Of a DNA stretch of 47,667 nt, positions 2,087 through 47,667 are shown piece by piece. The DNA is taken from contig JAJCYC010000237.1 of assembly GCA_029263115.1 (NCBI GenBank), positions 1-47,667 on the forward strand, given 5' to 3'. The first letter of the stretch is position 1. Every line of letters starts with the position of its first letter. The position numbers and the translations under genes are program-made. This stretch comes from Pseudonocardia sp. (GTDB taxonomy: Bacteria; Actinomycetota; Actinomycetes; Mycobacteriales; Pseudonocardiaceae). The notes beneath the pieces were generated by a model. The model had not been told where the DNA came from. It did not search any database and worked only from the letters and a program-made list of their open reading frames with translations.

Positions 2087-2107
2087 GACCTGACCCGAGG
2101 TCAGGTC
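2087..2107. promoter_or_regulatory. Perfect 8-bp inverted repeat upstream of the 6-dehydrogenase
   Basis: GACCTGAC (2087-2094) and GTCAGGTC (2100-2107) are exact reverse complements separated by 5 bases. They lie 26 bases before the GTG start at 2134. Position and symmetry suit a repressor operator or a 5'-leader hairpin. A weak promoter-like pair (TTGCGT near 2055, TCTACC near 2079) sits just upstream. The symmetry is seen directly; the role is inferred. Confidence 0.4.
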
Positions 2108-2133
2108 CCTCGGGCCTGGCATGAGGGAGCACG

Positions 2134-9050: not shown

Positions 9051-9063
9051 GGCTCGACGTCAG

Positions 9064-24676: not shown

Positions 24677-24679
24677 CGA

Positions 24680-24702
24680 CGTAGCCGCGCCGGAGTGCTA
24701 CG
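24680..24702. terminator. Weak hairpin at the convergent operon junction
   Basis: CGTAGC (24,680-24,685) and GCTACG (24,697-24,702) form a 6-bp stem with an 11-base loop. It spans the 21-base gap between the two long convergent operons, overlapping the stop of the leftward gene. It might end transcription from either side, but the stem is short. Confidence 0.3.
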
Positions 24703-25246: not shown

Positions 25247-25279
25247 CGCGTCCTCCAACTCCTCTTTCTCACGCGCCGG

Positions 25280-30193: not shown

Positions 30194-30390
30194 CGCTGTC
30201 CGTCCTCCAGTCTCCTGCTCCGATCCGACCCGGACAATCATGGACGCGATCCTCCGGGCCTGGTCACCAGGCATCTGACGGAGCCAAGTGAGCCTCGTGA
30301 ACGTACTGTCGTCACTCTGCGCCCAGCGGTGTGTCCGTGCCATCGCCAACAGTGAGGATCGATCGTCAGTCGCCCCGTCGTCCCACCCCG

Positions 30391-32284: not shown

Positions 32285-33409
32285 TCAGGACGTGACTGAC
32301 TCGATCTTGGGCAATCGGGGCTTCGCCTTGCGGCGCGCCAACGGTTTCTCCACCAGGAACCAGGACCCGACGGTGAGCAGCGCCGTCAGGCCGATGATCA
32401 TGGCCCAGCGCCGGGGGCTCGGGTCCGGATCGAACCGCCGGACCGAGTACAGGACCACGAAGTGGTAGACGTACAGGCCGTAGCTCACCCGCCCGATCGC
32501 GATCCACACCCGCCAGGTCAGCAAGCGGGTCAGCAGCCTCCCTTCGACGAGGGATGCGAGCAACACCGCGGTCACCAGGGCGATCAGGGTCAGCCCGCCG
32601 GCGACCATCGAGGGCGAGTACTCGGGGATCGTGACGGAGCCCACCAGCAGCAGCCCGACCGCGGTCCAGCCGACCCAGGGCCGGAACCCGGCGGTCACGG
32701 CGGCCGGCCTCGCCTCGTGCAGGAAGGCCATGAACGCGCCGATCATGAGGGCATCCGCGCGCGAGGTGGTGGCGAACCACAGTTGGTCGTGCGGCAGCAC
32801 GAAGAACAGCGCGAGCCGGGAGACCACCACGACCAGGATGGCCACGCCGCACCACTGCATCCGGCGTCGGGGCGACCACGAGCGGCGGAAGAAGAAGATC
32901 AGGACCAGCGGCCAGAGCAGGTAGAACTGCTCCTCGATGGACAACGACCAGGTGTGCTTCAGCGGGCCGAGCGCCGGCTGGGAGATGACGTTGAACCAGT
33001 TGGCCGCGTAGCCCAGCACCGCCAGAACCACCTCGGTGGGCGAGAAGCCGCCCATCATCGGGTCGTCCGGGAAGGCCACCATGACCGGCACCGCCAGCGC
33101 GGTCCCGATCAGCAGCGCCGGAGCCAACCGGTAGGCCCGGTTGCGGTAGAACCGCTTCAGGTTCAACCGGCCGGTCCGCCGCTGCTCGGTGGTCAGCAGC
33201 GAGGTGATCAGGTAGCCGGAGAGGACGAAGAACATGTCCACGGCCAGCCAGCCGCCCTTCGCCGGCAGGCCGTAGTGGCAGCCGAGGATCACCAGGACGA
33301 AGAAGCCGCGGATGCCGTCGAACTCGGGTCGATAGGCCAACTTCGGGGTGGCGCTCATCGCTGCGCGAGTCTTGGTCTCGGCCGACCCGGACAGTGACTT
33401 CTCAGCCAT
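32285..33409 (-). CDS. Acyltransferase family 3 membrane protein
   Basis: A 374-residue polytopic membrane acyltransferase (OafA/NodX-type). It opens with YRPEFDGIRGFFVLVILGCHYG, whose His is the catalytic candidate, followed by GGWLAVDMFFVLSGYLITSLL, RFYRNRAYRLAPALL, HTWSLSIEEQFYLLWPLVL, and RVSYGLYVYHFVVL near the end. About ten hydrophobic segments are visible and there is no fused SGNH domain. It probably O-acetylates or otherwise acylates the exported polysaccharide. ATG 33,409 with GAGGAG upstream starts 5 bases inside the methyltransferase gene's end, indicating coupling. An internal ATG at 33,358 is possible. Confidence 0.9.
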   Translation of the reverse strand: MAEKSLSGSAETKTRAAMSATPKLAYRPEFDGIRGFFVLVILGCHYGLPAKGGWLAVDMFFVLSGYLITSLLTTEQRRTGRLNLKRFYRNRAYRLAPALLIGTALAVPVMVAFPDDPMMGGFSPTEVVLAVLGYAANWFNVISQPALGPLKHTWSLSIEEQFYLLWPLVLIFFFRRSWSPRRRMQWCGVAILVVVVSRLALFFVLPHDQLWFATTSRADALMIGAFMAFLHEARPAAVTAGFRPWVGWTAVGLLLVGSVTIPEYSPSMVAGGLTLIALVTAVLLASLVEGRLLTRLLTWRVWIAIGRVSYGLYVYHFVVLYSVRRFDPDPSPRRWAMIIGLTALLTVGSWFLVEKPLARRKAKPRLPKIESVTS

Positions 33410-34589
33410 GACGCTCCTCGACTGCGATGCTCGGTCGGGCTCCGGTCGCAGGCCGGCCGACCTGGTGCGGCTCGGGCAACGGCACGACGTACTCCGCTCC
33501 CCAACCGCCGCCGGCCTCCAGCTGCGCGACGATCTCGTCGGCGATGTCCCAGGTCAGGATCAGCACGACGTCCGGGCGGGCAGCCCGCAGCTCCTCGATC
33601 GGGCGGATCGGCACCCCGGCGCCCGGGATCCGCCGCCCGTGCTTGCCGGGCGCGGCGTCGACGGTGAACGCCAGCAGCTCGGGTCCGACCCGGCTGACGT
33701 CCAGCAGCACCGGCGCCTTCGACGGCGCTCCGTAACCGAGCACCGTGCGGCCCCGGTCGCGTTGCCCGGCGAGATAGTCACGCAGCACGGTCGCGGTGCG
33801 CCGGGCCGTGTCCTGCAGGATGCGGTACCGGTGGGGATCGGCAAGACCGGCATCGCGCTCGGCGCGCAGCACGGCGGCCACCGAGGGGCCCACCGTTTCG
33901 TCCGCCGAGCCCGCCGTCGAGCCCGCCGTCGAGCCGGAGCGCAGCGTGACCAGCAGGCTGCCGCCGAACAGCGGGACCTGGACGGCCTCGGTCACCCGCA
34001 GCTCCAGTGGGGCGGCCAACTCCTGGATCGCGCCAAGGGACAGGTAGGCCCAGTGCCCGTGCCGGATGGTGTCGAACTGGCACTGCTCGACCAGCGGGAG
34101 CAGGTGGTGGAACTCCAGTAGCAACCGCCCGCCGGGGGCCAGCCGCTGCGCCCGCAGCGCCAGACTGGCGGCGAGATCGGGTTCGTGGGCCAGCCCGTGC
34201 ACGTCCACCACGAGGTCTGCCGGCTCACCCTCCCCGGCGTCCCGGCACCCGGCGGCGCGCAGGCTGGGCAGCCAGGAGCCGCCGTGGTGGCTGGCGAACT
34301 CGGCGACCGTGGCGCCGTCCAGCTCGGGGTGACGGGCGAGCAGCGCCCGCACCGACGACCCGGCGTGCGCAATGCTGGTCGCCGACTCGACGGCCAGCGG
34401 CATCTCCGGCAGCAGCGGCCGCACTGGTCCGAGCTGGGCCAGGGTGCAGGCCCGGCACAGCCACAGCTCCAGCGGCCAGCGCGGGTCCTCGGTGGGGTCG
34501 GTCGCCGGCGGGAAGTAGTCCGCGGCGGTCTGCTCGCCGAGGTCCACCACCAGCTCGACCGTGTCCCGGCCGCAGCCTCGGCAGTTCAC
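33402..34589 (-). CDS. Diverged C-methyltransferase-like protein (zinc-binding/C-methyltransf_14 type)
   Basis: A 395-residue relative of NDP-hexose C-methyltransferases, starting at GTG 34,589 overlapping the epimerase stop. The N-terminal zinc knuckle is intact (CRGCG and, later, WLCRACTLAQ). The SAM-binding region is altered: where the paralogue at 37,143 reads VVEVASNDGYLLQ, this protein reads VAEFASHHGGSWLP. The following NNVYAHIPD block is replaced by DVHGLAHEPD. The catalytic-region YHEHFQYYT is replaced by RHGHWAYLS, keeping His-x-His. The C-terminal domain is well preserved (VLGYGAPSKAPVLLD, FTVDAAPGKHGRRIPG). It may be a methyltransferase with changed specificity, or a non-catalytic partner. 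Confidence 0.72.
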   Translation of the reverse strand: MNCRGCGRDTVELVVDLGEQTAADYFPPATDPTEDPRWPLELWLCRACTLAQLGPVRPLLPEMPLAVESATSIAHAGSSVRALLARHPELDGATVAEFASHHGGSWLPSLRAAGCRDAGEGEPADLVVDVHGLAHEPDLAASLALRAQRLAPGGRLLLEFHHLLPLVEQCQFDTIRHGHWAYLSLGAIQELAAPLELRVTEAVQVPLFGGSLLVTLRSGSTAGSTAGSADETVGPSVAAVLRAERDAGLADPHRYRILQDTARRTATVLRDYLAGQRDRGRTVLGYGAPSKAPVLLDVSRVGPELLAFTVDAAPGKHGRRIPGAGVPIRPIEELRAARPDVVLILTWDIADEIVAQLEAGGGWGAEYVVPLPEPHQVGRPATGARPSIAVEERHG

Positions 34590-35626
34590 CGGGCTCCCTG
34601 CAGCGCGGTCAGGCGCAGGTCCGGGGCGAGCTCGCCGGCCGCGGTCCGGTCGGCGAGCCGGGCCAGCCGGGTGAACCGGCGGTCGAACGCGTGCTGGGTC
34701 AACCCGTGCCGGGTGTAGGCGGCGACCAGCTCGCGCGCGCCCTCCGGGATGGTCCAGCGCGCCTCGCAGCCGGGCACCGCCACCCGGAACCGGGAGAAGT
34801 CCACCCGGTAGGAGCGCGGGTCGGAGCCGTACTCGCCGGTGATCAGCAGCTCCGAGCCGGGCACCGCGTCCACCACCGCGGCCGCGATGTCGGCGACCGT
34901 GCGGTTGTTGGCCTCGGTACCGATGTTGAACGCCCTCGTGTGCACCACCCCGGTGGGCGCGGCCAGGATCGCGGCGGCGGCCGACGCGATGTCCTCGGCG
35001 TGCACCAGCGGCCGCCACGGGGTGCCGTCGGAGAGCACCTTCACCACCCCGGTCAGCACCGCGTGGCCGACCAGGTTGTTCAGCACGATGTCCGCCCGCA
35101 ACCTCGGCGAGAAACCGAACGCGGTGGCGTTGCGCATGGAGGTCGGGCTGAAGTCGTCGTCGGCCAGGTCCTGCAGGTCGTCCTCGACCCGCACCTTGGA
35201 CTCCGCGTACGGGGTCACCGGCTTGAGCGGAGCGTCCTCGGTCACCAGGTCGTCGCCGCCCTGCGCGCCGTACACCGAGCAGGTCGAGGCGTAGACGAAC
35301 CGCCGCACCCCGGCGTCCTTGGCCAACCGGGCCAACCGGGTCGACGCATGGTGGTTGATCTCGTGGGTGATCTCCGGGGCCAGCGAGCCCAGCGGGTCGT
35401 TGGACAACGCGGCCAGGTGCACCACGGCGTCCACCCCGGCCAGCATCTCCGGCGTGACGTCGCGCAGGTCGACCGCGAGGCCCCGGGGGTCGGCCGGTGC
35501 CGGTCCGAGCACGCAGGAGGCGTACAGGCCGGAGTCCAGGCCGGTCACCTGGTGGCCGGCGGCAGCCAGCACCGGGGCCATCACGGTGCCCAGATATCCC
35601 TGGTGTCCGGTGAGCAGGACGCGCAA
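34586..35626 (-). CDS. NAD-dependent epimerase/dehydratase (extended SDR)
   Basis: A 346-residue nucleotide-sugar enzyme. The Rossmann motif is VLLTGHQGYLGTV, followed by VVHLAALSNDPLG, the Ser region YASTCSVYGAQGG and the catalytic YAESK. The Asp-Glu pair that marks 4,6-dehydratases after the active-site Thr (TDE) is absent here (TCSVYG), so epimerase or reductase activity on an NDP-4-keto sugar is more likely. The start is TTG 35,626 with AAGGAG seven bases upstream. It is in the leftward sugar block between the PIG-L deacetylase (35 bases upstream) and the diverged methyltransferase, with which it overlaps by 4 bases. Confidence 0.86.
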   Translation of the reverse strand: MRVLLTGHQGYLGTVMAPVLAAAGHQVTGLDSGLYASCVLGPAPADPRGLAVDLRDVTPEMLAGVDAVVHLAALSNDPLGSLAPEITHEINHHASTRLARLAKDAGVRRFVYASTCSVYGAQGGDDLVTEDAPLKPVTPYAESKVRVEDDLQDLADDDFSPTSMRNATAFGFSPRLRADIVLNNLVGHAVLTGVVKVLSDGTPWRPLVHAEDIASAAAAILAAPTGVVHTRAFNIGTEANNRTVADIAAAVVDAVPGSELLITGEYGSDPRSYRVDFSRFRVAVPGCEARWTIPEGARELVAAYTRHGLTQHAFDRRFTRLARLADRTAAGELAPDLRLTALQGAR

Positions 35627-35661: not shown

Positions 35662-36324
35662 TCAGCACGACTCGGTGGCCGGGCCCGGCCCGAGCGTGAG
35701 CTTGGTCAGGTGGAATGCCTCTGCGTAGCGCGACTGGCACTGCACGCCCCGGACCCGGGCCAGGCCGGCGAAGACCTCGCGGTCGAACCAGGGCTTGTCC
35801 AGCTGGGAGGGGTAGTACTCGAACAGCAGGTCCAGCTTCTCGGTGAGCACCTCGGCGGGTACCGGGAAGAAGACCGACGGCTGGAGCAGGTCGCTCTCCC
35901 ACTTGAGGATCTCGTAGCCGAGGGTCAGGTGGTCCCGGAACACGGTCGGCACCAGCTCGGCCAGGGTGCGGTGGTCCTGGTGCGCGTCGTGTACCGCCGG
36001 GGCCAGGATGATGTCCGGGTCGACGTCCTGGCGCACCTCGCGCAGCGCCGCCTTCACCTCCTCCCAGTAGCTGGGCAGCAGGGTGTCCGGCAGGTCGAGC
36101 ACGGTGGTCTCGAGCTTCGCGCCGGGGCAGCACGCGGCCAGCGCGGCGCGCTCCTCGACCGCTCTCGACCCGTCGCCGCCGGTGCAGACCAGGGCGGTGA
36201 CCCGCAGGCCGGGGTTGGCCCGGCACAGCTCCAGCACGGTGCCGCCGGCGCTGATCGCGATGTCGTCGCAGTGCGCGCCGAGCAGCAGCAGGTGCGCGCA
36301 CCGTTCCGGCAGCAGGCTACGCAT
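35662..36324 (-). CDS. PIG-L family deacetylase
   Basis: A 220-residue LmbE/PIG-L-type metal-dependent N-deacetylase. The metal motif is LLGAHCDDIAISAGGTV (H-x-D-D), and the third ligand region is DAHQDHRTLAELVPTVFRD. The remainder fits the fold, and no signal peptide is present, so it acts in the cytoplasm on a small substrate. In this setting a nucleotide-linked N-acetyl sugar or an acylated branched-sugar precursor is plausible. It begins directly after the nucleotidyltransferase stop codon with no gap, which implies co-translation. The substrate is not deducible from the sequence. Confidence 0.86.
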   Translation of the reverse strand: MRSLLPERCAHLLLLGAHCDDIAISAGGTVLELCRANPGLRVTALVCTGGDGSRAVEERAALAACCPGAKLETTVLDLPDTLLPSYWEEVKAALREVRQDVDPDIILAPAVHDAHQDHRTLAELVPTVFRDHLTLGYEILKWESDLLQPSVFFPVPAEVLTEKLDLLFEYYPSQLDKPWFDREVFAGLARVRGVQCQSRYAEAFHLTKLTLGPGPATESC

Positions 36325-37146
36325 CTAGCGGTCCAGCTCGGCCTGGATCGCGGCCTGCAGCGGACACCGGTCGTCTTCGCGCTCCCACAGCATCCACGGT
36401 CGGGTGCCGGCCTGGTAGGCGGCCTCCAGCGCGATCCGCTCCTTGACCGTGTCGGCGGGCTGCCAGAACCCCTGGTACGGATAGGCGAGCATCCGGCCCT
36501 CCTTGGCCAGGTCGGTGCAGGCGTTGCCGATCAGGTCACCGTTCTCCGGCAGGTAGTCGAACACCTCGGGCCGCAGCACGAAGTAGCCACCGTTCTCCCA
36601 CAGCGGCAGCTCCTGCACGGTGTTGATCCGGGTGATCGAGTTGTCGTCGCCCAGCTCGACGCAGTGGAAGGCCGACTGCGGCGGCACCGCCAGCAACGAA
36701 CCCACCGCGTCGCTGCGCCCGAACTTGTCGATCATGGCGTTCAGCGGCAGGTCGGTGAGCACGTCGGCGTAGTTGGCGAGGAACATCTCCTCGCCCTCGA
36801 CCAGGTGGCGCACCCGGCGCAGCCGCTCGCCGATCGGTGACTCCAGACCGGTGTGCACGAAGTTGATCGTCCAGTCCTCGATGTCGCTGGACAGCAGCTC
36901 GACCTTGCCGCCGCGCAGTACGAAGTCGTTGCTCGCGGTCTCGGAGTAGTTGAGGAAGTAGTCCTTGATGTGGTGCGCGCCGTAGCCCAGGCACAGCACG
37001 AAGTCCTTGTGCCCGTGGTGGGCGTAGTAGCGCATGACGTGCCAGATCAGGGGACGCGGCCCCACCGGGTGCATCGGCTTGGGCAGATCGGACATTCCGT
37101 CGCGCATCCGCATGCCGTAGCCACCGCAGAACAGGACGACCTTCAT
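36325..37146 (-). CDS. Sugar-1-phosphate nucleotidyltransferase (glucose-1-P cytidylyltransferase-like)
   Basis: A 273-residue enzyme with the nucleotidyltransferase signature VVLFCGGYGMRMRDGMSDLPKPMHPVG, then PLIWHVMRYYAHHGHKDFVLCLGYGAHHIKDYFLNY, which is the pattern of RfbF-type glucose-1-phosphate cytidylyltransferases, and FLANYADVLTDLPL with the metal-binding Asp. It probably activates a sugar phosphate as the CDP derivative for a branched or deoxy sugar. A CDP-glucose 4,6-dehydratase is not found next to it. ATG 37,146 overlaps the upstream methyltransferase stop (ATGA). Confidence 0.85.
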   Translation of the reverse strand: MKVVLFCGGYGMRMRDGMSDLPKPMHPVGPRPLIWHVMRYYAHHGHKDFVLCLGYGAHHIKDYFLNYSETASNDFVLRGGKVELLSSDIEDWTINFVHTGLESPIGERLRRVRHLVEGEEMFLANYADVLTDLPLNAMIDKFGRSDAVGSLLAVPPQSAFHCVELGDDNSITRINTVQELPLWENGGYFVLRPEVFDYLPENGDLIGNACTDLAKEGRMLAYPYQGFWQPADTVKERIALEAAYQAGTRPWMLWEREDDRCPLQAAIQAELDR

Positions 37147-38441
37147 GGTTTGACCACCTCAAGGGTCGGGATCGGGAACACCAGCCGGCCGCCCCACTCC
37201 CCCACGTAGGCCAGCTGTTCGGTCAGCTCGGCCCGCAGGTTCCAGGGCAGCACGAGGACGTAGTCCGGGCGGTCCTGCGCGATCCGCTCCGGTGGGTGAA
37301 TCGGGATCCGCACGCCGGGGGTGTACCGGCCGTGCTTGTAGGGGTTGCGATCGACGGTGTAGGCGAGCAGGTCCGGGCGGATGCCGCAGTAGTTCAGCAG
37401 CGTGTTGCCCTTGCCCGGCGCTCCGTAGCCGACCACGGTCGCGCCCTTGTCGGCCGCGGTCAGCAGGAACCGGAGCAGGTCGGTGCGGACCCGGGCCACC
37501 ATGGCCGCGAAGCCGTCGTGGCCGGCCGCGGTGTGCAGCCCGGCGGCCCGTTCGGCGGCCAGCACCTCGGCGACGGCCTCGGTCGGCTCGCCGGCCACCT
37601 CGGACGGGCGGGCCCACAGCCGGATAGATCCGCCGTGGGTGGGTACCAGCTCCACGTCCACCAGTGACAGCCCGCCGGAGGCGAGTGCACGCTGGGCGGT
37701 GAGCACGGTGTAGTACTGGAAGTGCTCGTGGTAGATCGTGTCGAACTGGGCGAGCTGGACCAGGGTGAGCAGGTGCTGCACCTCGATCGACACCCAGCCG
37801 TCGTCGGCCACCAGGGTCCGCAACCCCCGGGTGAACCCCACCAGGTCCGGGATGTGGGCGTAGACGTTGTTGGCGGCCACCAGGTCGGCCGGGCCGTGCT
37901 CGGCGCGCACGTCGGCGGCCGACTCCGGGGTGAGGAACGCGGTCAGCGTCGGTACGCCGCGCTCGCGAGCCGCCTCGCCGACATTCACCGACGGCTCGAT
38001 ACCCAGGCACCGGATCCAGCGCTTCACCACATGCTGCAGGAGGTAGCCGTCGTTGCTGGCCACCTCGACCACGAACGAGTCGCTGTCCAGTCCCACCCGG
38101 TCCACCGCGGACGCGACGAACCGCTCGGCGTGCGCCACCCAGGAGCTGGAGAACGACGAGAAGTAGGCGTACTCGGTGAACGTGGCCTCCGGCGAGATGT
38201 GCGCCGGCAACTGCACCAGCAGGCACCCCTCGCAGGTCCACGCGTGCAGCGGATAGGTCATCTCGGGGTCCTCGAGCTGCGTGGGCCCGAGGAACAGCTC
38301 GCACGGCGGGGTCGCGCCGAGGTCCACGAAGCTGCGCAGCGCGGTCGAGCCGCACAGCCGGCAGCGGTTCACCTTGATCAGGTCGGAGCCCACGGCGGCC
38401 GGTCCGGAGTCATTGGGCTTGGGTTCAGTAAGCACCGTCAC
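37143..38441 (-). CDS. NDP-hexose C-methyltransferase (class I SAM-dependent)
   Basis: A 432-residue three-domain enzyme of the TylC3/NovU type. The N-terminal zinc domain has CRLCG and WTCEGCLLVQ. The SAM domain has VVEVASNDGYLLQHV and NNVYAHIPDLVGFTRGL. The catalytic region IYHEHFQYYT is intact, and the C-terminal domain has VVGYGAPGKGNTLLNYCGI and YTVDRNPYKHGRYTPG. It would add a methyl group to a carbon of an NDP-4-keto-deoxy sugar, giving a branched sugar. GTG 38,441 lies 17 bases inside the end of the sugar-transferase gene. It pairs with the diverged relative at 33,402 in the same operon. Confidence 0.9.
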   Translation of the reverse strand: MTVLTEPKPNDSGPAAVGSDLIKVNRCRLCGSTALRSFVDLGATPPCELFLGPTQLEDPEMTYPLHAWTCEGCLLVQLPAHISPEATFTEYAYFSSFSSSWVAHAERFVASAVDRVGLDSDSFVVEVASNDGYLLQHVVKRWIRCLGIEPSVNVGEAARERGVPTLTAFLTPESAADVRAEHGPADLVAANNVYAHIPDLVGFTRGLRTLVADDGWVSIEVQHLLTLVQLAQFDTIYHEHFQYYTVLTAQRALASGGLSLVDVELVPTHGGSIRLWARPSEVAGEPTEAVAEVLAAERAAGLHTAAGHDGFAAMVARVRTDLLRFLLTAADKGATVVGYGAPGKGNTLLNYCGIRPDLLAYTVDRNPYKHGRYTPGVRIPIHPPERIAQDRPDYVLVLPWNLRAELTEQLAYVGEWGGRLVFPIPTLEVVKP

Positions 38442-39990
38442 CGTGGATCACCGCCTTGACCGTCTTCCAGAGGATCAGTGCGTCCAACGCGAGACTCCAG
38501 TTCTCCACGTAGCGCAGGTCGAGCCGGACCGACTCGTCCCAGGACAGGTCGCTGCGCCCGCTGATCTGCCACAGGCCGGTCAACCCCGGCTTGACCAGCA
38601 GCTTGCGCTGGGCGTCCCGCGCGTAGCTGGCCACCTCGTCGGGCAGCGGGGGCCGTGGGCCGACCAGCGACATCGAGCCGAGCAGCACGTTGAACAGCTG
38701 CGGCAGTTCGTCGATCGAGTAGCGGCGCAGCACCACGCCGACCGGCGTCACCCTCGGGTCGGACCGCATCTTGAACAGCGGACCGCTGCCCTCGTTGTCC
38801 TCGGCCAGCCGGCAGCGCAGCCGTTCGGCATCGGTCACCATGGTGCGGAACTTGATCATCCGGAAGTGCTGGCCGTCGCGGCCGACGCGGGTCTGGCGGA
38901 ACAGCCCGGGGCCGCCGTCGGAGCGCACCGCGAGGTACGCCGCCACGAACAGCGGCGTCAGTAGCATGATCAGCAGGAACGCTCCGATGACGTCCATCCC
39001 GGTCTTCACCAGCCGGGGGATTCCGGTGAAGGTGGGCTCGGTGAGCCGCAGCAGCGGAAGGCCGTCCACCGGGGTGACATGCAGCCGGGGCCCGGAGATC
39101 TCCATCAGCCCGGGGTGCACCACCAGCTCGGCGCCGCAGCCCTCGATGTCCCAGGACAGCCGGTGCAACCGCAGCGGCGTCCAACCCTCCGCCGGGGCCA
39201 CCGCGATCACCCCGTAGTCACCGCTGAGCGCCACGCGGCTGACCGAGTCCAGGTCGCCGACCACCGGCACCCCGGCGACGCTGGTCTCCAGCCCACCGGG
39301 CGTGCACGCCGCGCTGACCCACCAGCCGTAGTGCATGTCCCGCCGGGTGCGTTCGACGAGGTCGGCGATGAAGTCCCGGTCGCCGACCGCGAGCACCGGG
39401 CGCAGGCAGCTGCCGTGCAGTCGGCGACGGTGCAGCGGCTTGCGCAGCGCATAACGGCCGCACAGCGCCAGGAAACCGGCCAGCGGAATGATCAGGAACA
39501 CCCAGGGGCGCACTGAGGCGACCTGGAAGGCCAGTGCGGCCATGCCCAGGGTGACCGAGGAGTTCAGCACCGCACGGGTCAGCCGGCTGTACTCCTCGGA
39601 GCCGCTGCCGAGGATCCGGGAGTCCCACGCTCGGCAGGCCACGATCGCCACCACGAAGCCGACGAAGATCACCAACGCCATCCAGCGCGAGGTGTACGGG
39701 GTGGTGGCGTTGTCGCCGGGCCCCATCCACATCCCCAGCGACAGCGACAGGGTCAGCGCGAGCAGATCGGAGCCGATCACCGTCCAGGCGTAACGCCGTT
39801 CCCAGGCCGGACGGGGTGCCCGGGTGGCCGTCGCGCCCAGGCGCTCGGGCGTCTCCGGCACCGTCGACACGAGCCGGCCGTCATGTCTACCGGCGCCGGT
39901 GGGTCTGCCGGCGCCGTTACCGGCGGCACCCGGTCTAGGGCCACGTTCACCCACGAACGACGCCCCGCCCGATCCGTTGGACTCGCTCAC
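38425..39990 (-). CDS. Polyprenyl glycosylphosphotransferase (WbaP/CpsE-like initiating sugar transferase)
   Basis: A 521-residue membrane enzyme that transfers a sugar-1-phosphate to undecaprenyl phosphate and so starts the repeat unit. A Gly/Pro-rich N-terminus is followed by four or five membrane helices (about 70-185), a CoA-binding-like domain (about 190-310) and the catalytic bacterial sugar transferase domain from about 325. That domain has the re-entrant helix DVIGAFLLIMLLTPLF, then FRQTRVGRDGQHFRMIKFRTM, RRYSIDELPQLFNVLLGSMSLVGPRPPLP and KPGLTGLWQISGRSDLSWDE. All conserved elements are present. GTG 39,990 start. It is the first gene of the leftward operon and faces the divergent NRPS gene. 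Confidence 0.92.
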   Translation of the reverse strand: MSESNGSGGASFVGERGPRPGAAGNGAGRPTGAGRHDGRLVSTVPETPERLGATATRAPRPAWERRYAWTVIGSDLLALTLSLSLGMWMGPGDNATTPYTSRWMALVIFVGFVVAIVACRAWDSRILGSGSEEYSRLTRAVLNSSVTLGMAALAFQVASVRPWVFLIIPLAGFLALCGRYALRKPLHRRRLHGSCLRPVLAVGDRDFIADLVERTRRDMHYGWWVSAACTPGGLETSVAGVPVVGDLDSVSRVALSGDYGVIAVAPAEGWTPLRLHRLSWDIEGCGAELVVHPGLMEISGPRLHVTPVDGLPLLRLTEPTFTGIPRLVKTGMDVIGAFLLIMLLTPLFVAAYLAVRSDGGPGLFRQTRVGRDGQHFRMIKFRTMVTDAERLRCRLAEDNEGSGPLFKMRSDPRVTPVGVVLRRYSIDELPQLFNVLLGSMSLVGPRPPLPDEVASYARDAQRKLLVKPGLTGLWQISGRSDLSWDESVRLDLRYVENWSLALDALILWKTVKAVIHGDGAY

Positions 39991-40327
39991 GCCGAAACAA
40001 CCCCCTTGCGGTACACCGGCCGAGGCCGTTCGTTGCCTCTGGAAGACTCGCGGAACCGGCCCCGGGAATCATCGTCACGACTAACGAACGGACCACCCCG
40101 AACCACCGGGAAACCTCGGGGACAGGCGGGTGGGTCAGATCGGCATCGGGCCCAACCGGACGGCGTCAACCACCCCGGTCCGCGAGGTCCGCCCGCTCAT
40201 GGGCGCGATGACCTGTCACGGTCAGATCATCAAAATTTACGTGTTTAGGGATGCCTGTGCCGGGCAAGCATGGGCCGCCCGGCTGAAACCCAGATCCACA
40301 TACGTCGGGGTCGGGGGCGGTTGTTCG
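39991..40327. other. 337-base divergent intergenic region with spaced dyad
   Basis: This gap separates the leftward polysaccharide operon from the rightward NRPS/PKS genes and must hold promoters for both unless they are read through from elsewhere. A perfect 9-base dyad is present: CCGTTCGTT (40,026-40,034) and AACGAACGG (40,083-40,091), separated by 48 bases. It is nearer to the sugar-transferase gene and could be a looped or double operator. No clear -10/-35 pair was found on the minus strand. Confidence 0.4.
40226..40247 (+). promoter_or_regulatory. AT-rich island, candidate NRPS promoter
   Basis: The stretch ATCATCAAAATTTACGTGTT and the following bases are conspicuously AT-rich in a region that is otherwise very GC-rich. 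It lies 80-100 bases before the chosen NRPS start at 40,328. This supports that start over in-frame ATGs at 40,130, 40,199 and 40,208, which lie upstream of the island. No consensus hexamers could be assigned with confidence. Confidence 0.4.
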
Positions 40328-43300
40328 ATGGTCTCACCACTCTGCACACCACAGCGCGCGCACATCTCGCCGCCGGGGCAACTCCCTGCGCAGGGCCACG
40401 AGCGGGTGCGGGTGGCCTTCGTCGGTGACGGCCCGTTGCTACCCGCCTGCGCCGAACACGCACTCGGGCTCGGCCTCGACGTGGTACTTGTGGCAACCGA
40501 GGACACCGAGGTCGCCGGCTGGGCGCGCTCAGCCGCGGTCCAGGTCATCGCGCCGGACGGCGGCCTGGCCGAGGCGCTCGTCACGGCCGGGGCGTCGGTG
40601 TTGCTCAGCGTGGCCAACCTGCGCCTGCTGCCCGCGTCGGTCCTGGAGGCGGTCTCGACCGCGGTCAACTTCCACGACGGCCCGCTGCCGGGGTACGCCG
40701 GGCGCAACGTCACGTCGTGGGCGCTGCTGGCCGACGAGCCGACCCACGCGGTCACCTGGCACCTGATGCAGGCGCGCGCCGACACCGGCGCCGTGGTGGC
40801 CACGGCGGCGTGGCCGGTGAGCCCGGACGCGACCGCCGAAACGCTCAACAAGCGGTGCTTTGCCGAGGGTCTCGCCACCTTCGCCGAGGTGGCCTCGGGA
40901 CTGGCCAGCGCGACGCTGCCGGCCACCCCGCAGCCGCCCGGCACCCGGCGGTTGTGCCGATCGACCGATCGCCTCGGGGCGCGTTCCCTGCTCGACCCGG
41001 CCCGGCCCGCGGCGGAACTGGCCCGTACGGTGCGTGCGCTGGACTTCGGTGCCCGGGTGCCGAACCCCATCGGCGTTCTGCGCGCCGTCAGCGGCGGCCG
41101 GGGCTGGCTGGTCACCGAAGCGAGCGCGGATGGCACCGGCGCGGGTGTCGCCGTGGCGACCGCTGACGGTGAGCTGCGGGTCACCCGGATCACCCGGCTC
41201 GACGGTGCGCCGACCGAGCCGAGCCAGGTGGAGCTGGGTTCCGGGGTCCCACCGCGGCTGGCGGCCGCGCTCGACGAGCTCGACAACGAACTGGCACGCC
41301 AGGAGCCCGGCTGGATCTCCCGCCTGAGCGGTGTCAATCCGATCGAGCTCCCGGTTCGGCCGGGCCAGGGCCGTGGTTGGCGGGAGATCGCCGTACGGGG
41401 CCCGAGCGCCCGCCGGCTGGACCCGCCCACTGCAGTCGCCGTGGGCGCGGCATGGCTGGCCCGGCTGACCGGCGCCGACGAGGTCACGATCGGTGTGGTG
41501 CCGGACCGGGCGACCGCCGACCGGCTCGACGGGCTCGCGCCGCTGGCCGCCCCGCCGGTGCTGACCATCCGCCCGGATGCCCCGGCCCTCCCGGCAGCGG
41601 AGCTGGCCGACTGCGCGGCCCGGGGCCCTTGGCTGGTCGACCTCATCGCCCGTACCCCGGCGCTCGCCGGTCGAGCGGCGCCGGCCGTCGTCGTCGACCT
41701 GGTCGGCGTGGCCGAGTCGTTGCCCGGTGAGGTGCTGCGGTTGTCGTGCCGGGCGGACGGCAGTGTCGTGCTCGGCCACGACCGGGCCGCGATCCACGAA
41801 GCGGACGCCGCCCGGTTTGCCCGGCAGCTGGCCGGGTTCGTGACCTCCGCCGGTGGCCCGGAGCGCCTCGCCGAGCTGTCTCTGGTCGAGCTCGACGGTG
41901 CCGATGCCTCGTGGGCGGTCGGGGGCCGTTCCGGTCACGACCGTGGCCGCAGCGCATGGGACGAGGTGCGGGCCGGGCTCGAACGCCGCGCCGAGCAGCC
42001 CGTGCTCAGCGACGCCTCAGGGCGCGCGGTGCGCGGAGGCGAACTGGTCGGGCTGGCCCAGGGGCTGGCCACGACGCTGGCCGAGCGCGGGGTCGGCCGC
42101 GGCGACCGGGTCGGCCTGGCGGTGGAGCGGGGGGTGGACCTGGTGGTCGCGGCCCTGGGCATCCTCGCCTCCGGCGCGGCCTACGTCCCGCTCGACCCGA
42201 CCTACCCGGACGAAAGGCTGGCGATGATGGCCGCGGACGCCGGCCTCGCCGCGGTGCTGGCCACCAGTGCCGCCGTCGGCACGCGGGTGGCCCCCGGGGT
42301 CGCCCTGGTCGATCCGAGGACGCCGGCCTGCGATCGGCGTTCCGCGCCGGCCGGGCCGACCCCGCACGACACCGCCTACGTGATCTACACCTCGGGCTCC
42401 ACCGGCCGCCCCAAGGGCGTCGTCGTCGAGCACCGTCAGCTGGTGCATTTCTTCGCCACGATGGACGAGGTCGTCGACCAGGACCCGCCCGGGACCTGGC
42501 TCGCCGTCACCAGTCCATCGTTCGACATCTCGGTCCTGGAGCTGCTGTGGACCCTGGCCCGTGGCTTCGACGTCGTCGTGGCGCCCGACCGGGTCGGGTC
42601 GGCATCGGCGCCACTGCCGGTCCCGAAACTGAGCCTGTTCTTCTTCGCCGCGAGCTCGGCCGACGGCTACGGCCTGCTGCTCGACGGTGCGCGGGCGGCC
42701 GACCGGCTGGGCCTGCACGCCGTCTGGACCCCGGAGCGCCACTTCCACGACTTCGGTGGCCCCTACCCGAACCCCGCGGTGACCGGCGCCGCGCTGGCCG
42801 CGGTGACCGAGCGGGTACACGTTCGCGCCGGCAGCACGGTGCTGCCGCTGCACTCCCCGATCCGGGTGGCCGAGGAGTGGGCCGTGGTCGACCAGCTCTC
42901 CGGCGGCCGGGTCGGGGTGTCGTTCGCCACCGGTTGGCAGCCCGACGACTTCGTCCTCAACCCCTCGGCCCGGCCGGGGGACAAGCAGCGGCTGATCACC
43001 GACATCGAGCTGGTTCGCCGGCTGTGGCGTGGTGAGACGGTCAAGCTGCCCGGTATCGGCGACCAACCCGTCGCGGTCCGGACCTTGCCCCGTCCGGTGC
43101 AGGCCGAGCTCCCGATCTGGCTCACCTCGGCCGGGTCCGCCTCGACCTTCGAGCTGGCGGGCCAGCTCGGGGCCGGGGTCCTGACCCACCTGTTGGGCCA
43201 GCGTCCCGACGCCCTGGCCCAGAACGTGGCTGCCTACCGGGCGGCGTGGCGGTCCGCCGGCCATCCCGGCACCGGGCACGTCACGCTCATGCTGCACACC

Positions 43301-44857
43301 TTCCTGGGCCACGACGCCGAGCGCGTCGCCGCCCTGGTGCGGGAGCCGATGAAGACCTACCTGGGCACCTCGGTGTCGCTGCTGCGTGACGTCGCGTCGA
43401 CGTTCCCGACGTTCCAGTCCGGTGGCAAGGTCGACGACGCCGCCATCGCGGCGCTGGCCCCCGATGAGCTCGATGCGCTTCTCGGCGTCGCGGCGGACCG
43501 CTACTGCGCCGAGGCCGGCCTGATCGGCACCCCCGCCGAGGTCGCCGAACGGGCGGTCGCGCTGGTCGGTCTGGACATCGACGAGTTCGCCTGCCTGGTG
43601 GACTTCGGTGTCGACGACGCGGAGGTGCTGGCGGCGATCGAGCTGCTGCCGACTTTCGAGGAGGCCCTGCGCACCCGGCTGGCCGCCCACGCGGCCGACA
43701 TCGCCGCGCCGGTCGCGCTGGCCGGTATCGCCGAGCGTCACGGTGTGACCCACCTGCAGTGCACCCCGTCCCAGGCAGCCATGCTCGTGGGGGACCCGAC
43801 AGAGCGCGTGCTGCTCGGCGGGCTCCGGCACCTGCTGGTCGGCGGCGAGGCACTGCCCCCCGACCTCGCGGACCAGCTGCGCCAGGCCGTGCCCGGTCGG
43901 TTGACCAACGTCTACGGTCCGACCGAGACGACGGTCTGGTCACTGAGCCACGAGCTGTCGGCGGGCCGGACGGGCCCGGTGCCGATCGGTCGCCCGCTGG
44001 CCAACACCACGATCGGCGTGCTGGACGGGCGCGGACGGCTGATGCCGGTGGGCTGCGTCGGCGAGCTGGCGATCGGCGGCGAGGGTGTGACCGCCGGCTA
44101 TCACGACCGCCCCGAACTGACCGCCGATCGGTTCCGGTCGGTCGAGGGCCTCGGTCGCGCCTATCTCACCGGCGACGTCGTCCGGGTCGACCCGGACACC
44201 GGGGAGTGCGCTTTCCTGGGCCGGCGCGACAACCAGATCAAGCTGCGCGGCCACCGGATCGAACTCGGTGAGATCGAGGCGGTCCTGGCCGACGCGCCCG
44301 GCGTCGGACGGGCCGCGGTCACCGCCATCGGGACCGGTGCAGGCGCCAACCTCGTCGGTTATCTCGTCCCGGAGCCCGGAGCAGCAACCGTCGACGAATT
44401 CGCCGTGCGCACCCATGCCGAGGCGCGGCTTGCTCCGATCATGATGCCGAGCCAGCTGGTGACTCTCCCGGCGTTCCCGCTCACCCCCAACGGCAAGCTC
44501 GACCGCGCCGCACTGCCGGCGCCGGGCGCGGCCGAACCGGTGGGGCCACCGGTGGGTGACAAGGAGTTGTGCACGGCGACGGCCTGGGCCGAAGTCCTGG
44601 GCCGACAGATCGGGCGGGACGAGAACTTCTTCGACGCTGGCGGCAACTCGCTGGCCGCTGTCCAGGTGTTCCGCGCCCTGGCCGGGACGGCGCCCCGGCT
44701 CAAGCTGACCGACGTGTTCCGATATCCCACCGTACGACTGCTCGCCGCGCACCTCGATCGCCAGTCGAACAGTGCGGTTGCGGCGGCCGGCTCCGAACGA
44801 CCAGCCAGCCGCGGTGACCGACGCCGCGCCCTGCTCGCACAACGGGAGCGCACATGA
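40328..44857 (+). CDS. NRPS: formyltransferase, partial C, glycine A domain interrupted by luciferase-like monooxygenase, PCP
   Basis: A 1509-residue synthetase. Residues about 27-210 form a formyltransferase domain with Asn114, His116 (VNFHDGPLPGYAG) and Asp152 (ARADTG) in the catalytic positions. Residues about 340-525 resemble only the acceptor half of a condensation domain; no HHxxxDG is present. The adenylation domain runs from about 555: A2 YVPLDPTYPDERL, A3 YVIYTSGSTGRPKG (684-697), A4 FDIS (732-735). A luciferase-like FMN monooxygenase interrupts it (about 766-1110; FFFAASSADGYGLLLDGARA, AEEWAVVDQLSGGRVG). The domain resumes near 1122: A5 VYGPTET, A7 YLTGD, A8 RGHRIELGEIE, A10 PNGK. 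Substrate-code positions read DILQLGVVWK, which is glycine-like. PCP Ser1441 lies in DAGGNSL. Start chosen for GGGGGCGG upstream. It overlaps the PKS gene (ATGA). Confidence 0.9.
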   Translation: MVSPLCTPQRAHISPPGQLPAQGHERVRVAFVGDGPLLPACAEHALGLGLDVVLVATEDTEVAGWARSAAVQVIAPDGGLAEALVTAGASVLLSVANLRLLPASVLEAVSTAVNFHDGPLPGYAGRNVTSWALLADEPTHAVTWHLMQARADTGAVVATAAWPVSPDATAETLNKRCFAEGLATFAEVASGLASATLPATPQPPGTRRLCRSTDRLGARSLLDPARPAAELARTVRALDFGARVPNPIGVLRAVSGGRGWLVTEASADGTGAGVAVATADGELRVTRITRLDGAPTEPSQVELGSGVPPRLAAALDELDNELARQEPGWISRLSGVNPIELPVRPGQGRGWREIAVRGPSARRLDPPTAVAVGAAWLARLTGADEVTIGVVPDRATADRLDGLAPLAAPPVLTIRPDAPALPAAELADCAARGPWLVDLIARTPALAGRAAPAVVVDLVGVAESLPGEVLRLSCRADGSVVLGHDRAAIHEADAARFARQLAGFVTSAGGPERLAELSLVELDGADASWAVGGRSGHDRGRSAWDEVRAGLERRAEQPVLSDASGRAVRGGELVGLAQGLATTLAERGVGRGDRVGLAVERGVDLVVAALGILASGAAYVPLDPTYPDERLAMMAADAGLAAVLATSAAVGTRVAPGVALVDPRTPACDRRSAPAGPTPHDTAYVIYTSGSTGRPKGVVVEHRQLVHFFATMDEVVDQDPPGTWLAVTSPSFDISVLELLWTLARGFDVVVAPDRVGSASAPLPVPKLSLFFFAASSADGYGLLLDGARAADRLGLHAVWTPERHFHDFGGPYPNPAVTGAALAAVTERVHVRAGSTVLPLHSPIRVAEEWAVVDQLSGGRVGVSFATGWQPDDFVLNPSARPGDKQRLITDIELVRRLWRGETVKLPGIGDQPVAVRTLPRPVQAELPIWLTSAGSASTFELAGQLGAGVLTHLLGQRPDALAQNVAAYRAAWRSAGHPGTGHVTLMLHTFLGHDAERVAALVREPMKTYLGTSVSLLRDVASTFPTFQSGGKVDDAAIAALAPDELDALLGVAADRYCAEAGLIGTPAEVAERAVALVGLDIDEFACLVDFGVDDAEVLAAIELLPTFEEALRTRLAAHAADIAAPVALAGIAERHGVTHLQCTPSQAAMLVGDPTERVLLGGLRHLLVGGEALPPDLADQLRQAVPGRLTNVYGPTETTVWSLSHELSAGRTGPVPIGRPLANTTIGVLDGRGRLMPVGCVGELAIGGEGVTAGYHDRPELTADRFRSVEGLGRAYLTGDVVRVDPDTGECAFLGRRDNQIKLRGHRIELGEIEAVLADAPGVGRAAVTAIGTGAGANLVGYLVPEPGAATVDEFAVRTHAEARLAPIMMPSQLVTLPAFPLTPNGKLDRAALPAPGAAEPVGPPVGDKELCTATAWAEVLGRQIGRDENFFDAGGNSLAAVQVFRALAGTAPRLKLTDVFRYPTVRLLAAHLDRQSNSAVAAAGSERPASRGDRRRALLAQRERT

Positions 44858-47544
44858 CAGACATCGCCATCGTCGGCATGGCCGGACGCTTCCCCGGTGC
44901 CCCGGACGTCGACGCCCTGTGGGAGCTCGTGCGCGACGGCCGCGAGGGCCTGGTCGACCTGGACGATGCCGACCTGCTGGCCGCAGGCGTGGACCCGGAC
45001 ACGATCGCCGACCCGGACTACGTGAAGCGGGCCGGGGTGCTGGCCGAGGTCGACTGCTTCGACGCCGCGCTGTTCGGTATCGGACCCGGCGACGCGGCCG
45101 TGATGGACCCCCAGCACCGCCTGCTTCTGGAGTGCGCGTGGGCCACCCTTGAGGCCAGTGGCCACGTACCCGGGAACTTCCCCGGATCGGTGGGGGTGTT
45201 CGCCGGTTGCGGGCCGAACACCTACCTGCTGCACAACTTGCTCACCCGGCCCGAGGTGGTCGAGCGGCTCGGCTGGTTCCTGCTGCGGCACACCGGCAAT
45301 GACAAGGATTTCCTGAGCACCGGCATCTCCTACCGCCTCGACCTGCGCGGGCCGAGTGTGGCGGTCCAGACGGCCTGCTCGACCTCGCTGGTCGCGGTGC
45401 ACATGGCAGCTCAGAGCCTGTTGTCGCTGGAGTGCGACATGGCACTGGCCGGCGGGGTGACGGTGGACGTGCCGCACGGGGTCGGCTACCGCTATGCCGA
45501 GGGCGAGGTGGTCTCTCCCGAGGGCAAGTGTCGGCCGTTCGACATCAAGTCCGCCGGCACAGTCCTGGGCAGCGGGGTGGGGATGGTTGCGCTGCGCAGG
45601 CTCGAGGACGCCGAGGTGGACGGCGACACGGTGCTCGCGGTGATCAAGGGCACGGCAGTCAACAACGACGGCACCCGCAAGGTCGGCTACCTCGCGCCGA
45701 GCGTCGACGGGCACATCGAGGTCGCCAGAGAGGCCCTGGCCGTGGCCGGTGTGGACCCGGCGACCGTCGGGTTGTTGGAGGCGCACGGCACCGGCACCGC
45801 GGTCGGTGACCCGATAGAGGTCGCGGCGCTCACCGAGGCCTACGCGGCCGGCGAGGAGCGTGGCTGGTGCCGCCTCGCCTCGACGAAGGCCAACATAGGC
45901 CACTGCGACACCGCCGCCGGGATCGCCAGCCTGATCAGCGCGGTGCAGGCACTACGGCACCGCTGGCTGCCGCCACTGGCCGGCTTCACCGCGCCGAACC
46001 CGCTGCTCGACCTCGACCGCACGCCGTTCCATCTGTCCTCGACCGGTTCGGCCTGGCCGGCCGGAGCCACTCCTCGGCGGGCCGCGGTGAGCAACCTGGG
46101 CATCGGCGGCACGAACGCGCACGTCGTGCTGGAAGAGGCAGCCGAGCCGCGGCGGGGGCCGTCCGGCGGCCCGGCGCTGCTGCTCGTCTCGGCCGCCACC
46201 GCGGACGGCGCGGACGCCGCCGTGACCCGGCTGTCCAGATACCTGGGTGACCGACCGACCACGGATCGCCCCGCGGCCGCACACACCCTGCTGACCGGAC
46301 GGCGCCGGTTCGCCCAGCGGCGGGCGCTGGTGGCCGACAGCGGCGGCACGGCGTCGATCGGCGTGTCCGACGGACCCGACGATGCCGCGCCTCGGGTGGT
46401 GTTCTGCTTCCCCGGGGGCGGCTCGGGCTACCCGGGGATGGCCGCCGGGCTGCTCGTCGGCGACAGCCGTTTCGACACGTTTCGTTCCGCCTTCCAGGAG
46501 GTCCGTACCGCCCTCGCCGACCACGGCGGCCCCGACGTGGCCCACTACCTGGATCCCGGCGCGGACGCTGCGGCCATGCGCCGCACCACGGTGTCTCTGC
46601 CGACCGTGCTCGCCGTCGAGCTTGCGCTGGCTCGCCAGTTGCGGGCCTGGGGGATCACCCCGGCGGCGACGCTGGGGCACAGCCTCGGGGAGTACTCCGC
46701 GGCCCACCTGGCCGGTGTGCTCGACCTCGACGGGTTGGCGAAGCTGGTCGTCTGCCGGTCACAGCTGGTCGAACGGGTCAGCGGGGCAGGTGGAGCGATG
46801 GCCGCGGTGTCGATGTCGGAACGCGATCTACTGCCCTACCTCGGCGCGGAGCTGTCGCTGGCCGCGGTCAACGCGCCTGACGAGTGCACCGTCTCCGGCC
46901 CGGTGCATGCAGTGGACGAGCTGCAGCGCCGGTTGGAGTCACGGGAATCGGTCGACGCCGCCGTGCACCGGCTCGGGCTCGCGGCGGCCGGCCACTCGAG
47001 CCTGCTCGACCCGGTGCTGGAGGAGTTCGCCTCGGTGGCGGCCCAGGTCCCGTTGCGGGCGCCGACCTCGCCGTACATCACCAACGTGACCGGTCGGTGG
47101 GCCACGGCCGAGGATCTCGCCGACCCCCGCTGGTGGGTCCGTCATCTACGCGGCACGGTGCGCTTCGCCGACGGGCTGGCCACCGCGCTGGGCGGCGGTC
47201 CCACCATCCTGCTGGAGGTCGGCCCCGGTCACGCGCTGAGCAGCTACGCCGGGTTGAGCGAACCCGGCCCGGTCGCCTCGGTTCCCATGATGCGCCACCC
47301 CACGGAGTCCGGTCCCGACGACGTCCACCTACTCGGCGCACTCGGCCGGGGATGGACAGTCGGGATGGAAGCCTACTGGGCCAGCGTCGTCGCTCCGCCG
47401 GGCCCGCGCCGGCAGGTGCCGCTGCCCGGCTACCCGTTCGCCCGCACCAAGCACTGGATCGGCCCGCCGATCCAGGCTGCCTCGCGGGCCGCGCGACGGG
47501 GGCCCCGGCCGCTCGATTCCTGGGCCAGCAGGGCCTCGGCGTAG
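44854..47544 (+). CDS. Type I PKS, KS-AT only, probably truncated by an insertion sequence
   Basis: An 896-residue protein. The ketosynthase (1-430) has Cys175 in TACSTS, His311 in EAHGTGT and His350 in NIGHCDTAAG, so it should be active. VNNDGTRKVGYLAPSVDGH is the form seen in hybrid NRPS/PKS ketosynthases that take chains from carrier proteins of peptide modules. The acyltransferase (about 515-800) has Ser610 in GHSLGEYSAAHLAG and His714 in AAGHSSLLDP; malonyl-CoA is my tentative extender. The post-AT linker PLPGYPFARTKHWIG is present, after which about 26 low-complexity residues lead to TAG at 47,542. No ACP, KR or TE follows, so the module is incomplete. An ISAs1-like element begins at or near the stop. 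ATG overlaps the NRPS stop by 4 bases. Confidence 0.88.
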   Translation: MTDIAIVGMAGRFPGAPDVDALWELVRDGREGLVDLDDADLLAAGVDPDTIADPDYVKRAGVLAEVDCFDAALFGIGPGDAAVMDPQHRLLLECAWATLEASGHVPGNFPGSVGVFAGCGPNTYLLHNLLTRPEVVERLGWFLLRHTGNDKDFLSTGISYRLDLRGPSVAVQTACSTSLVAVHMAAQSLLSLECDMALAGGVTVDVPHGVGYRYAEGEVVSPEGKCRPFDIKSAGTVLGSGVGMVALRRLEDAEVDGDTVLAVIKGTAVNNDGTRKVGYLAPSVDGHIEVAREALAVAGVDPATVGLLEAHGTGTAVGDPIEVAALTEAYAAGEERGWCRLASTKANIGHCDTAAGIASLISAVQALRHRWLPPLAGFTAPNPLLDLDRTPFHLSSTGSAWPAGATPRRAAVSNLGIGGTNAHVVLEEAAEPRRGPSGGPALLLVSAATADGADAAVTRLSRYLGDRPTTDRPAAAHTLLTGRRRFAQRRALVADSGGTASIGVSDGPDDAAPRVVFCFPGGGSGYPGMAAGLLVGDSRFDTFRSAFQEVRTALADHGGPDVAHYLDPGADAAAMRRTTVSLPTVLAVELALARQLRAWGITPAATLGHSLGEYSAAHLAGVLDLDGLAKLVVCRSQLVERVSGAGGAMAAVSMSERDLLPYLGAELSLAAVNAPDECTVSGPVHAVDELQRRLESRESVDAAVHRLGLAAAGHSSLLDPVLEEFASVAAQVPLRAPTSPYITNVTGRWATAEDLADPRWWVRHLRGTVRFADGLATALGGGPTILLEVGPGHALSSYAGLSEPGPVASVPMMRHPTESGPDDVHLLGALGRGWTVGMEAYWASVVAPPGPRRQVPLPGYPFARTKHWIGPPIQAASRAARRGPRPLDSWASRASA

Positions 47545-47667
47545 TTGATCTGCCCGTTATGTGAGCAGGTCGAGGGCGCGGTTGGGGTGTCGGGCGGTGT
47601 GTCGGCAGGCTTGGGCGATGTTGCTGGCGCCGGCCAGTCGGTGGCGGCTGACCGCGAAGTTGCGCAG
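47529..47667. mobile_element. ISAs1-like insertion sequence, one end visible
   Basis: The right edge of the window holds the 3' end of a leftward transposase gene and a short flank that should contain the element's terminal inverted repeat. CAGGGCCTCGGCGTAGTTGA begins at 47,529. A CAGGG start would suit an ISAs1-family end, but the other end is outside the window and the boundary is therefore a guess. If it is right, the PKS stop codon at 47,542-47,544 lies inside the element. Confidence 0.5.
47557..47667 (-). CDS. ISAs1-like transposase, C-terminal 36 residues only
   Basis: Reading leftward from the window edge the frame gives LRNFAVSRHRLAGASNIAQA and continues CRHTARHPNRALDLLT before TAA at 47,559-47,557. 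The pattern LRNxA..xLRLAGxxNIAxAxRHxARxPxRxLxLL is the familiar C-terminus of ISAs1-family DDE transposases. The catalytic domain and start lie beyond the window. Whether the full gene is intact cannot be seen. It is convergent with the PKS gene, leaving only 12 bases between the two stops. Confidence 0.7.
   Translation of the reverse strand: MRNFAVSRHRLAGASNIAQACRHTARHPNRALDLLT

Follow-up and report, generated by a model that had tools for sequence, protein, structure and literature searches.

What does a non-ribosomal peptide synthetase (NRPS) make when it joins a formyltransferase to an adenylation (A) domain split by a luciferase-like monooxygenase (LLM), and why is it encoded among genes for surface polysaccharide? 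The question is raised by a 47,667-nucleotide stretch of a Pseudonocardia sp. draft genome (GCA_029263115.1, contig JAJCYC010000237.1), here called the window. Its frame at 40130–44857 (forward strand) is open over the whole length and encodes one protein, directly followed by a gene for the ketosynthase (KS) and acyltransferase (AT) part of a polyketide synthase (PKS) (Pfam). All 18 related loci carry a homologous PKS beside the NRPS; by label transfer, 15 of them contain at least two polysaccharide genes, and the window also has two or more. We give about even chances to the reading that the NRPS is the chain-initiation module of a two-protein NRPS-PKS line dedicated to surface polysaccharide, working by the glycine-to-butenoyl steps proposed below.

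Domain organization of the NRPS starter protein

Pfam matches on the 40130–44857 open reading frame (ORF) comprise Formyl_trans_N, AMP-binding (in two stretches), Bac_luciferase, AMP-binding_C and PP-binding. Homology with the relatives starts at approximately 40412, and the start codon is uncertain. The protein and its parts are:

40130..44857, forward strand: NRPS starter protein, consisting of formyltransferase, unassigned region, A domain split by the LLM, and peptidyl carrier protein (PCP) domain (Pfam, NCBIfam, alignment)
40412..41251, forward strand: formyltransferase domain of the Fmt/ArnA fold, catalytic N-H-D (Pfam, alignment, structure comparison)
41252..41974, forward strand: region of 241 residues between formyltransferase and A domain, without Pfam match and without HHxxxDG
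41981..42589, forward strand: first part of the A domain, cores up to A4 (FDIS) (Pfam, alignment)
42629..43648, forward strand: inserted LLM dependent on flavin mononucleotide (FMN), of family TIGR04020, closest solved structure 6KET (PuwE) (profile, structure)
43703..44497, forward strand: second part of the A domain, cores A5–A10 (Pfam, NCBIfam, alignment)
44579..44755, forward strand: peptidyl carrier domain (GGNSL) (Pfam, alignment)

The insert belongs to the seco_metab_LLM family, as the TIGR04020 profile matches with 424.9 bits at a cut-off of 244.45 (NCBIfam). The preliminary description, made from the sequence, had placed an LLM at 42623–43657, between A4 and A5 and with the later cores intact; a search across the genome of the window gives 42629–43648. 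Its position is shown by an alignment of 19 rows (the window and 18 relatives) and by the A-domain profile TIGR01733, which matches the protein in two stretches. In the alignment, the insert begins about 30 residues past FDIS and is followed by GVTHLQCTPSQ and by NVYGPTE (A5), and A3, A7, A8, A10 and the carrier motif GGxSL are intact. All 51 LLM columns with a conservation of 95% or higher among 51 other LLM domains are kept in the window, and the idea of a degenerate LLM was dropped on this ground.

The closest solved structure by sequence is 6KET (E 9.2e-92). Both folds implied by the split were recovered in a predicted structure, the LLM at model residues 217–567 (6KET, Z 37.3 over 334 residues) and an A fold that spans across the insert (1AMU, Z 31.7 over 447 residues); with a mean pLDDT of 75 and a pTM of only 0.45, the model is trusted for the folds and not for the mutual orientation of the domains. 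In an LLM tree, the 19 family members are not recovered as a single supported clade (2 changes; one change in 7% of bootstrap trees), and this tree neither supports nor rejects a single origin.

The formyltransferase triad of N, H and D is present in all 17 rows with a fused domain, including the window. Structure comparison relates this part to ArnA, Fmt and the hydrolase domains of 10-formyl-THF dehydrogenase (Z 22–25); it covered mainly residues 1–280 and is silent on the 241 residues that follow, for which Pfam returned zero matches. In the whole protein, no Condensation (C) domain was found by Pfam and no HHxxxDG by motif search. A C-domain remnant in the 241-residue stretch was considered and rejected, with no match in the window and three of five homologues and weak ones, far below the cut-off, in the other two. 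These searches agree with the earlier remark that a complete C domain is lacking, and show no remnant of one either. The protein has the organization of formyltransferase-A-PCP (F-A-PCP) initiation modules, that is, a formyltransferase with its N-H-D triad fused to A and PCP domains without a C domain. Because a C domain is missing and the KS-AT gene lies directly downstream, chain initiation is the natural reading, as had been proposed at the outset.

The specificity pocket of the window reads DILQLGVVWK in a motif-anchored alignment (GrsA numbering), identical to the glycine-type code that had been read by hand. The relatives read DILQ(L/M/F/A)G(M/V)(I/V)WK, and DILQLGMIWK occurs in 8 of the 19 rows. 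According to the accessible part of PMC12283262, four glycine-activating A domains with a monooxygenase (MOX) insert all read DILQLGMIWK. The pocket residues point to glycine as the probable substrate of the A domain.

The partner polyketide synthase

In the window, the partner PKS is represented by its first half:

44854..47544, forward strand: KS-AT half of the partner PKS, matching the PKS of related locus L009 up to 47475 and then running into repeat DNA
47529..47667, reverse strand: tail of an insertion-element-like repeat ORF, located where the contig ends; the repeat has six other matches in this genome, one just 31 bases long

This half corresponds to residues 3–880 of the L009 PKS. 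Another contig of the same genome (C313) carries at 223–3027 the ketoreductase (KR), dehydratase (DH), acyl carrier protein (ACP) and thioesterase (TE) half, residues 1054–2041 of the same query. C313 starts with the tail of an ORF related to the window repeat (L093 1–123), the two sharing 43% identity over 35 residues. The PKS break is thus flanked on contigs C237 and C313 by the tails of related repeat ORFs; tails of this kind are known from ISAs1-like transposases. In its simplest reading, the arrangement appears to reflect an insertion within the PKS gene between AT and KR; alternatively, the assembly may have failed at the repeat. Motifs are present on both sides: the KS C-H-H and AT GHSxG in the window half, and the KR Ser and Tyr motifs, DH His and Asp, ACP GGNSL, TE GYSGGG and TE His in the C313 half.

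Pfam, applied to four related loci, gives a single-module partner, KS-AT-KR-DH-ACP-TE. The Deinococcus PKS (L085) ends in a Condensation domain instead of the TE (Pfam), which would fit acyl transfer to an amine or alcohol; the separate formyltransferase and the C domain-bearing PKS of this variant lie at 15785–16696 and 20400–27767, respectively. In an alignment of the 18 related PKSs, with AT, KR and DH motifs read by the general rules for these domains, the KS Cys, AT Ser, KR Tyr and DH His motifs are found in all 18, and the DH Asp and ACP Ser in 17 (the exception, L067, is split over two frames). The TE Ser is present in 16 (exceptions L067 and L085, the latter with the C domain) and the TE His in 15 (L067, L085 and L010, which has a gap there).

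A gene for a phosphopantetheinyl transferase (PPTase), or a remnant of one, is present in 13 of the 18 loci and lies directly after the NRPS in 12; among these, L087 has a partial match and L067 a PPTase in the NRPS frame. The latter (L067 12061–17457, Limimaricola cinnabarinus LL-001) may represent a fusion or an assembly error.

Polysaccharide context and distribution

A scan of a genome collection yielded 74 loci, and a plasmid scan 2043 records, of which 12 covered at least 80% of the query and seven of these were examined; the loci of the window itself (L001 and L090) are excluded from all counts. In each of the 18 related loci, seven of them from plasmid records, an LLM-split A domain occurs with a formyltransferase and the adjoining PKS. 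Of the 17 loci that cover the gene start, 16 have the formyltransferase fused to the A domain, and in Deinococcus L085 it is a separate gene; L015 begins at a contig edge, with the NRPS gene start outside. Every examined locus with both formyltransferase and LLM also has the PKS. The loci come from Rhodobacterales, Hyphomicrobiales, Ilumatobacteraceae, another Acidimicrobiia metagenome-assembled genome and Deinococcus, and represent Alphaproteobacteria, Acidimicrobiia and Deinococcus.

Three loci have fewer than two polysaccharide genes: L010 has one, plus chain-length and export-like genes by eye, and L013 and L015, both cut by a contig edge, have none. Annotated neighbors in the relatives include sugar transferases, glycosyltransferases, flippases, WecB/TagA/CpsF enzymes and polysaccharide export proteins (L088 carries no annotation). 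In six of the 18 loci the PKS and NRPS genes are separated by a GT2 gene (L083, L087 and L089 by annotation, L067 by Pfam, L017 and L063 by similarity). Taking these genes together with the domains of the four tested PKSs, the family places a type I PKS within capsule or exopolysaccharide-type clusters. The control consisted of 33 other LLM loci, of which 19 are only 4 kb long, two more are below 6 kb and most are actinobacterial; none holds two or more glycan genes, and three hold one. Nor did these 33 loci show such a formyltransferase, the 19 of 4 kb being too short for reliability; they include L018 (4.4 kb, no formyltransferase seen). The recurrence of the pair in surface-polysaccharide clusters suggests a non-sugar building block for the cell coat. 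Upstream of the NRPS gene the window contains:

38425..39990, reverse strand: sugar transferase (Bac_transf, Pfam)
37143..38441, reverse strand: C-methyltransferase (Methyltransf_13/14, Pfam)
36325..37146, reverse strand: nucleotidyl transferase (NTP_transferase, Pfam)
35662..36324, reverse strand: PIG-L deacetylase family
34586..35626, reverse strand: NAD-dependent epimerase/dehydratase
32285..33409, reverse strand: acyltransferase family 3
26605..28191, reverse strand: polysaccharide pyruvyl transferase
25280..26608, reverse strand: class III aminotransferase
24698..25258, reverse strand: dTDP-4-dehydrorhamnose 3,5-epimerase family
22668..23936, forward strand: group 1 / family 4 glycosyltransferase
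7632..9050, forward strand: Wzy_C O-antigen ligase/polymerase family (a second match, 21421–22671, is below the Pfam cut-off)
5947..7635, forward strand: Wzz chain-length determinant family
2134..3450, forward strand: UDP-glucose/GDP-mannose dehydrogenase family

Two right-handed beta-helix (NosD-like) proteins are encoded among these genes (8986–10593 and 19889–21427), and two long ORFs in the polysaccharide region (28862–30349 and 30489–32159) have no Pfam match at E ≤ 0.0001. In Paracoccus marcusii (L089 3–2390), a further NRPS, with A-PCP-TE visible and cut by the locus edge, lies beside a WecB-type glycosyltransferase approximately 8 kb from the PKS.

Among 296 sampled genomes of the window's class, TIGR04020 scored above cut-off in 20 and a formyltransferase was found at E ≤ 1e-20 in five. 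The four besides the window's have no LLM beside such a formyltransferase, weaker formyltransferases not having been sought. A combination common in the class was thus rejected for this sample; because only the window's genome shows both domains in one frame, horizontal arrival of the cassette is plausible. Another genome of the class (L122, G057) encodes a formyltransferase-A-PCP protein near KS genes without an LLM insert, resembling the conglobatin and oxazolomycin starters.

Proposed pathway, alternatives and known systems

In the pathway that we propose, the A domain would load glycine onto the PCP, the formyltransferase would cap its amine, and the inserted LLM would hydroxylate the alpha carbon, so that the likely starter is N-formyl-alpha-hydroxyglycyl-S-PCP, a carbinolamide. 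The formyl group would stabilize this carbinolamide, and we therefore favor its retention over cleavage. The partner KS would extend it by one unit, probably malonyl, and KR and DH would reduce and dehydrate to 4-formamido-4-hydroxybut-2-enoyl-ACP. Release by the TE (the C domain in Deinococcus) might give the acid, the lactone 5-formamido-2(5H)-furanone, or an acyl group on a sugar or glycosyl acceptor of an exopolysaccharide. The predicted gamma-lactone would be the N-formyl analog of the Fusarium butenolide. Domains, motif residues, pairing and context are observed; the order of steps, the number of extensions, the four-carbon product and its use, probably for exopolysaccharide, are those predicted from them. 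The preliminary description had foreseen a formylated, oxidized glycyl starter and its handover to a KS; it had missed the recurrence of the NRPS-PKS pair in polysaccharide loci, the single-module nature of the partner and the repeat DNA into which the partner gene runs.

Several observations weigh against this pathway or its use for polysaccharide. The window pocket differs from the reported code, with V at 322 and 330. The AT motif AAHS (AAGHS in the window) leaves the extender unit unsettled, the DH motif is mostly HRxxxGxxxxPG, one residue longer than the textbook HxxxGxxxxP, which makes DH activity uncertain, and iteration is conceivable for a single module in which KR precedes DH. The glycan query set was drawn from the window and the family loci themselves (self-matches excluded), and the control loci are mostly short and actinobacterial. 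The formyltransferase matches the sugar-related ArnA better than LgrA (105.8 vs. 48.9 bits), and we found no orthologue whose product is known. In the window's own genome the PKS appears interrupted, and no PPTase (PF01648) was found in this draft of 94.55% completeness; the same search gave matches in 10 of 14 control genomes, and the absence is probably an assembly gap.

Because the PKS looks interrupted, the pathway may be dead in this organism. That the locus is a decaying remnant without present function is possible, though we lean against it: at the contig edge the KS-AT half gives way to a repeat, and on C313 a related repeat tail adjoins the start of the other half, but the NRPS gene is intact with its motifs kept, and assemblies also fail where contigs end at repeats. 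Decay here would be compatible with any reading at the level of the family. For the family, it is improbable in our view that the carbinolamide collapses as in myxothiazol release, with formamide leaving and glyoxylyl-S-PCP as the true starter, so that formylation and oxidation would serve to deaminate glycine on the carrier. Hydroxylation followed by cleavage is described for myxothiazol and melithiazol (PMC10204066, PMC12283262, accessible parts), but free alpha-hydroxyglycine should collapse unaided, which would make the formyltransferase, conserved in 17 of 17 fused rows, superfluous, and alpha-hydroxyglycine is retained in solanimycin B (PMC10204066). The ArnA score and the separate formyltransferase gene of Deinococcus would also suit a formyltransferase that acts on an amino sugar of the polysaccharide rather than on glycine, leaving an alpha-hydroxyglycyl or glyoxylyl starter. 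This we consider very unlikely, given its fusion to the A domain in nearly all loci that cover the gene start (16/17) and the fused F domain of linear gramicidin synthetase, which acts on a PCP-bound amino acid, as is also proposed for conglobatin (PMC4504003, accessible part).

The pair might instead make an ordinary secreted small molecule (a signal, antibiotic or metallophore), polysaccharide islands and plasmids being merely mobile gene depots. The plasmid origin of 7 of the 18 loci would agree with this, as would conglobatin and oxazolomycin, which are secreted and have formyl-glycine starters and KS partners (PMC4504003). We nevertheless judge it unlikely, as the glycan context recurs in three bacterial groups, with GT2 genes between PKS and NRPS in a third of the loci (6/18), and is absent from the 33 other LLM loci, many of only 4 kb. 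In its most far-reaching form, the polysaccharide reading would make the NRPS-PKS pair a widespread, probably horizontally shared cassette for a non-carbohydrate exopolysaccharide monomer (4-formamido-4-hydroxycrotonyl, butenolide or masked aldehyde), a glycan-attached latent electrophile that cross-links or glues the matrix; we offer this as a tentative and rather doubtful extension. If true, the product of an assembly line would serve as cell-surface material instead of a diffusible metabolite. The pair itself links modular natural-product enzymes to surface polysaccharide assembly, and with two proteins it is small enough to be reconstituted in vitro. If the product decorates or links glycans, biofilm matrices would gain a chemical type of substituent, and database entries that bear only the name of the LLM domain would be accounted for.

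No description of the NRPS-PKS cassette was found in the open-licence literature with narrow sets of search terms, which does not show its absence from print. The published systems compared here are taken from the accessible parts of the cited papers. Type I PKS genes among capsular polysaccharide genes are known for RkpA and WcbR (PMC3908369), where an NRPS, formyltransferase or LLM partner is not mentioned in the part available. LLMs in PKS lines are assigned as alpha-hydroxylases or chain-shortening oxidases (PMC8739492); the LLM domains of PuwE (6KET) and MupA/Atu3671 are of the same monooxygenase family as the window insert, but lie, as far as described, outside any formylating glycine starter module. 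Initiation by F-A-PCP is shared with LgrA (linear gramicidin), CongA (conglobatin) and OzmO (oxazolomycin), and CongA also resembles the window protein in its predicted use of glycine and its transfer to a KS (PMC4504003). For these three a monooxygenase insert is not mentioned in the accessible text, and conglobatin is a secreted macrodiolide with an oxazole, its closure assigned to CongE.

The closest counterparts of the split A domain are MtaG (myxothiazol) and MelG (melithiazol). The preliminary description had named them, and PMC10204066 confirms a flavin-dependent monooxygenase (FMO) between a4 and a5 that hydroxylates the alpha carbon of glycine. The introduction of PMC12283262 puts MOX inserts between A8 and A9, which differs from that account and from the window protein (A4–A5). 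With MtaG and MelG, cleavage of the carbinolamide sets the chain free as an amide, whereas the window has a formylating module before a KS; with no C domain, an N-terminal formyltransferase and a KS-AT partner, it may work in a similar way but is not a terminal-amide module of that type. SolF (solanimycin) likewise has an FMO in a glycine A domain and retains alpha-hydroxyglycine in product B, but there the FMO lies between a8 and a9, the module acts in chain elongation, and the part of PMC10204066 at hand does not mention a formyltransferase. The "different chemistry" suggested earlier therefore finds no support: the oxidation is of a known type, and it is the placement in a formylating first module that is without a match in the accessible literature. 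As a starter-position version of the glycine A-MOX domain, set beside MtaG, MelG and SolF, the window protein should help to define the conditions under which the carbinolamide survives or undergoes cleavage.

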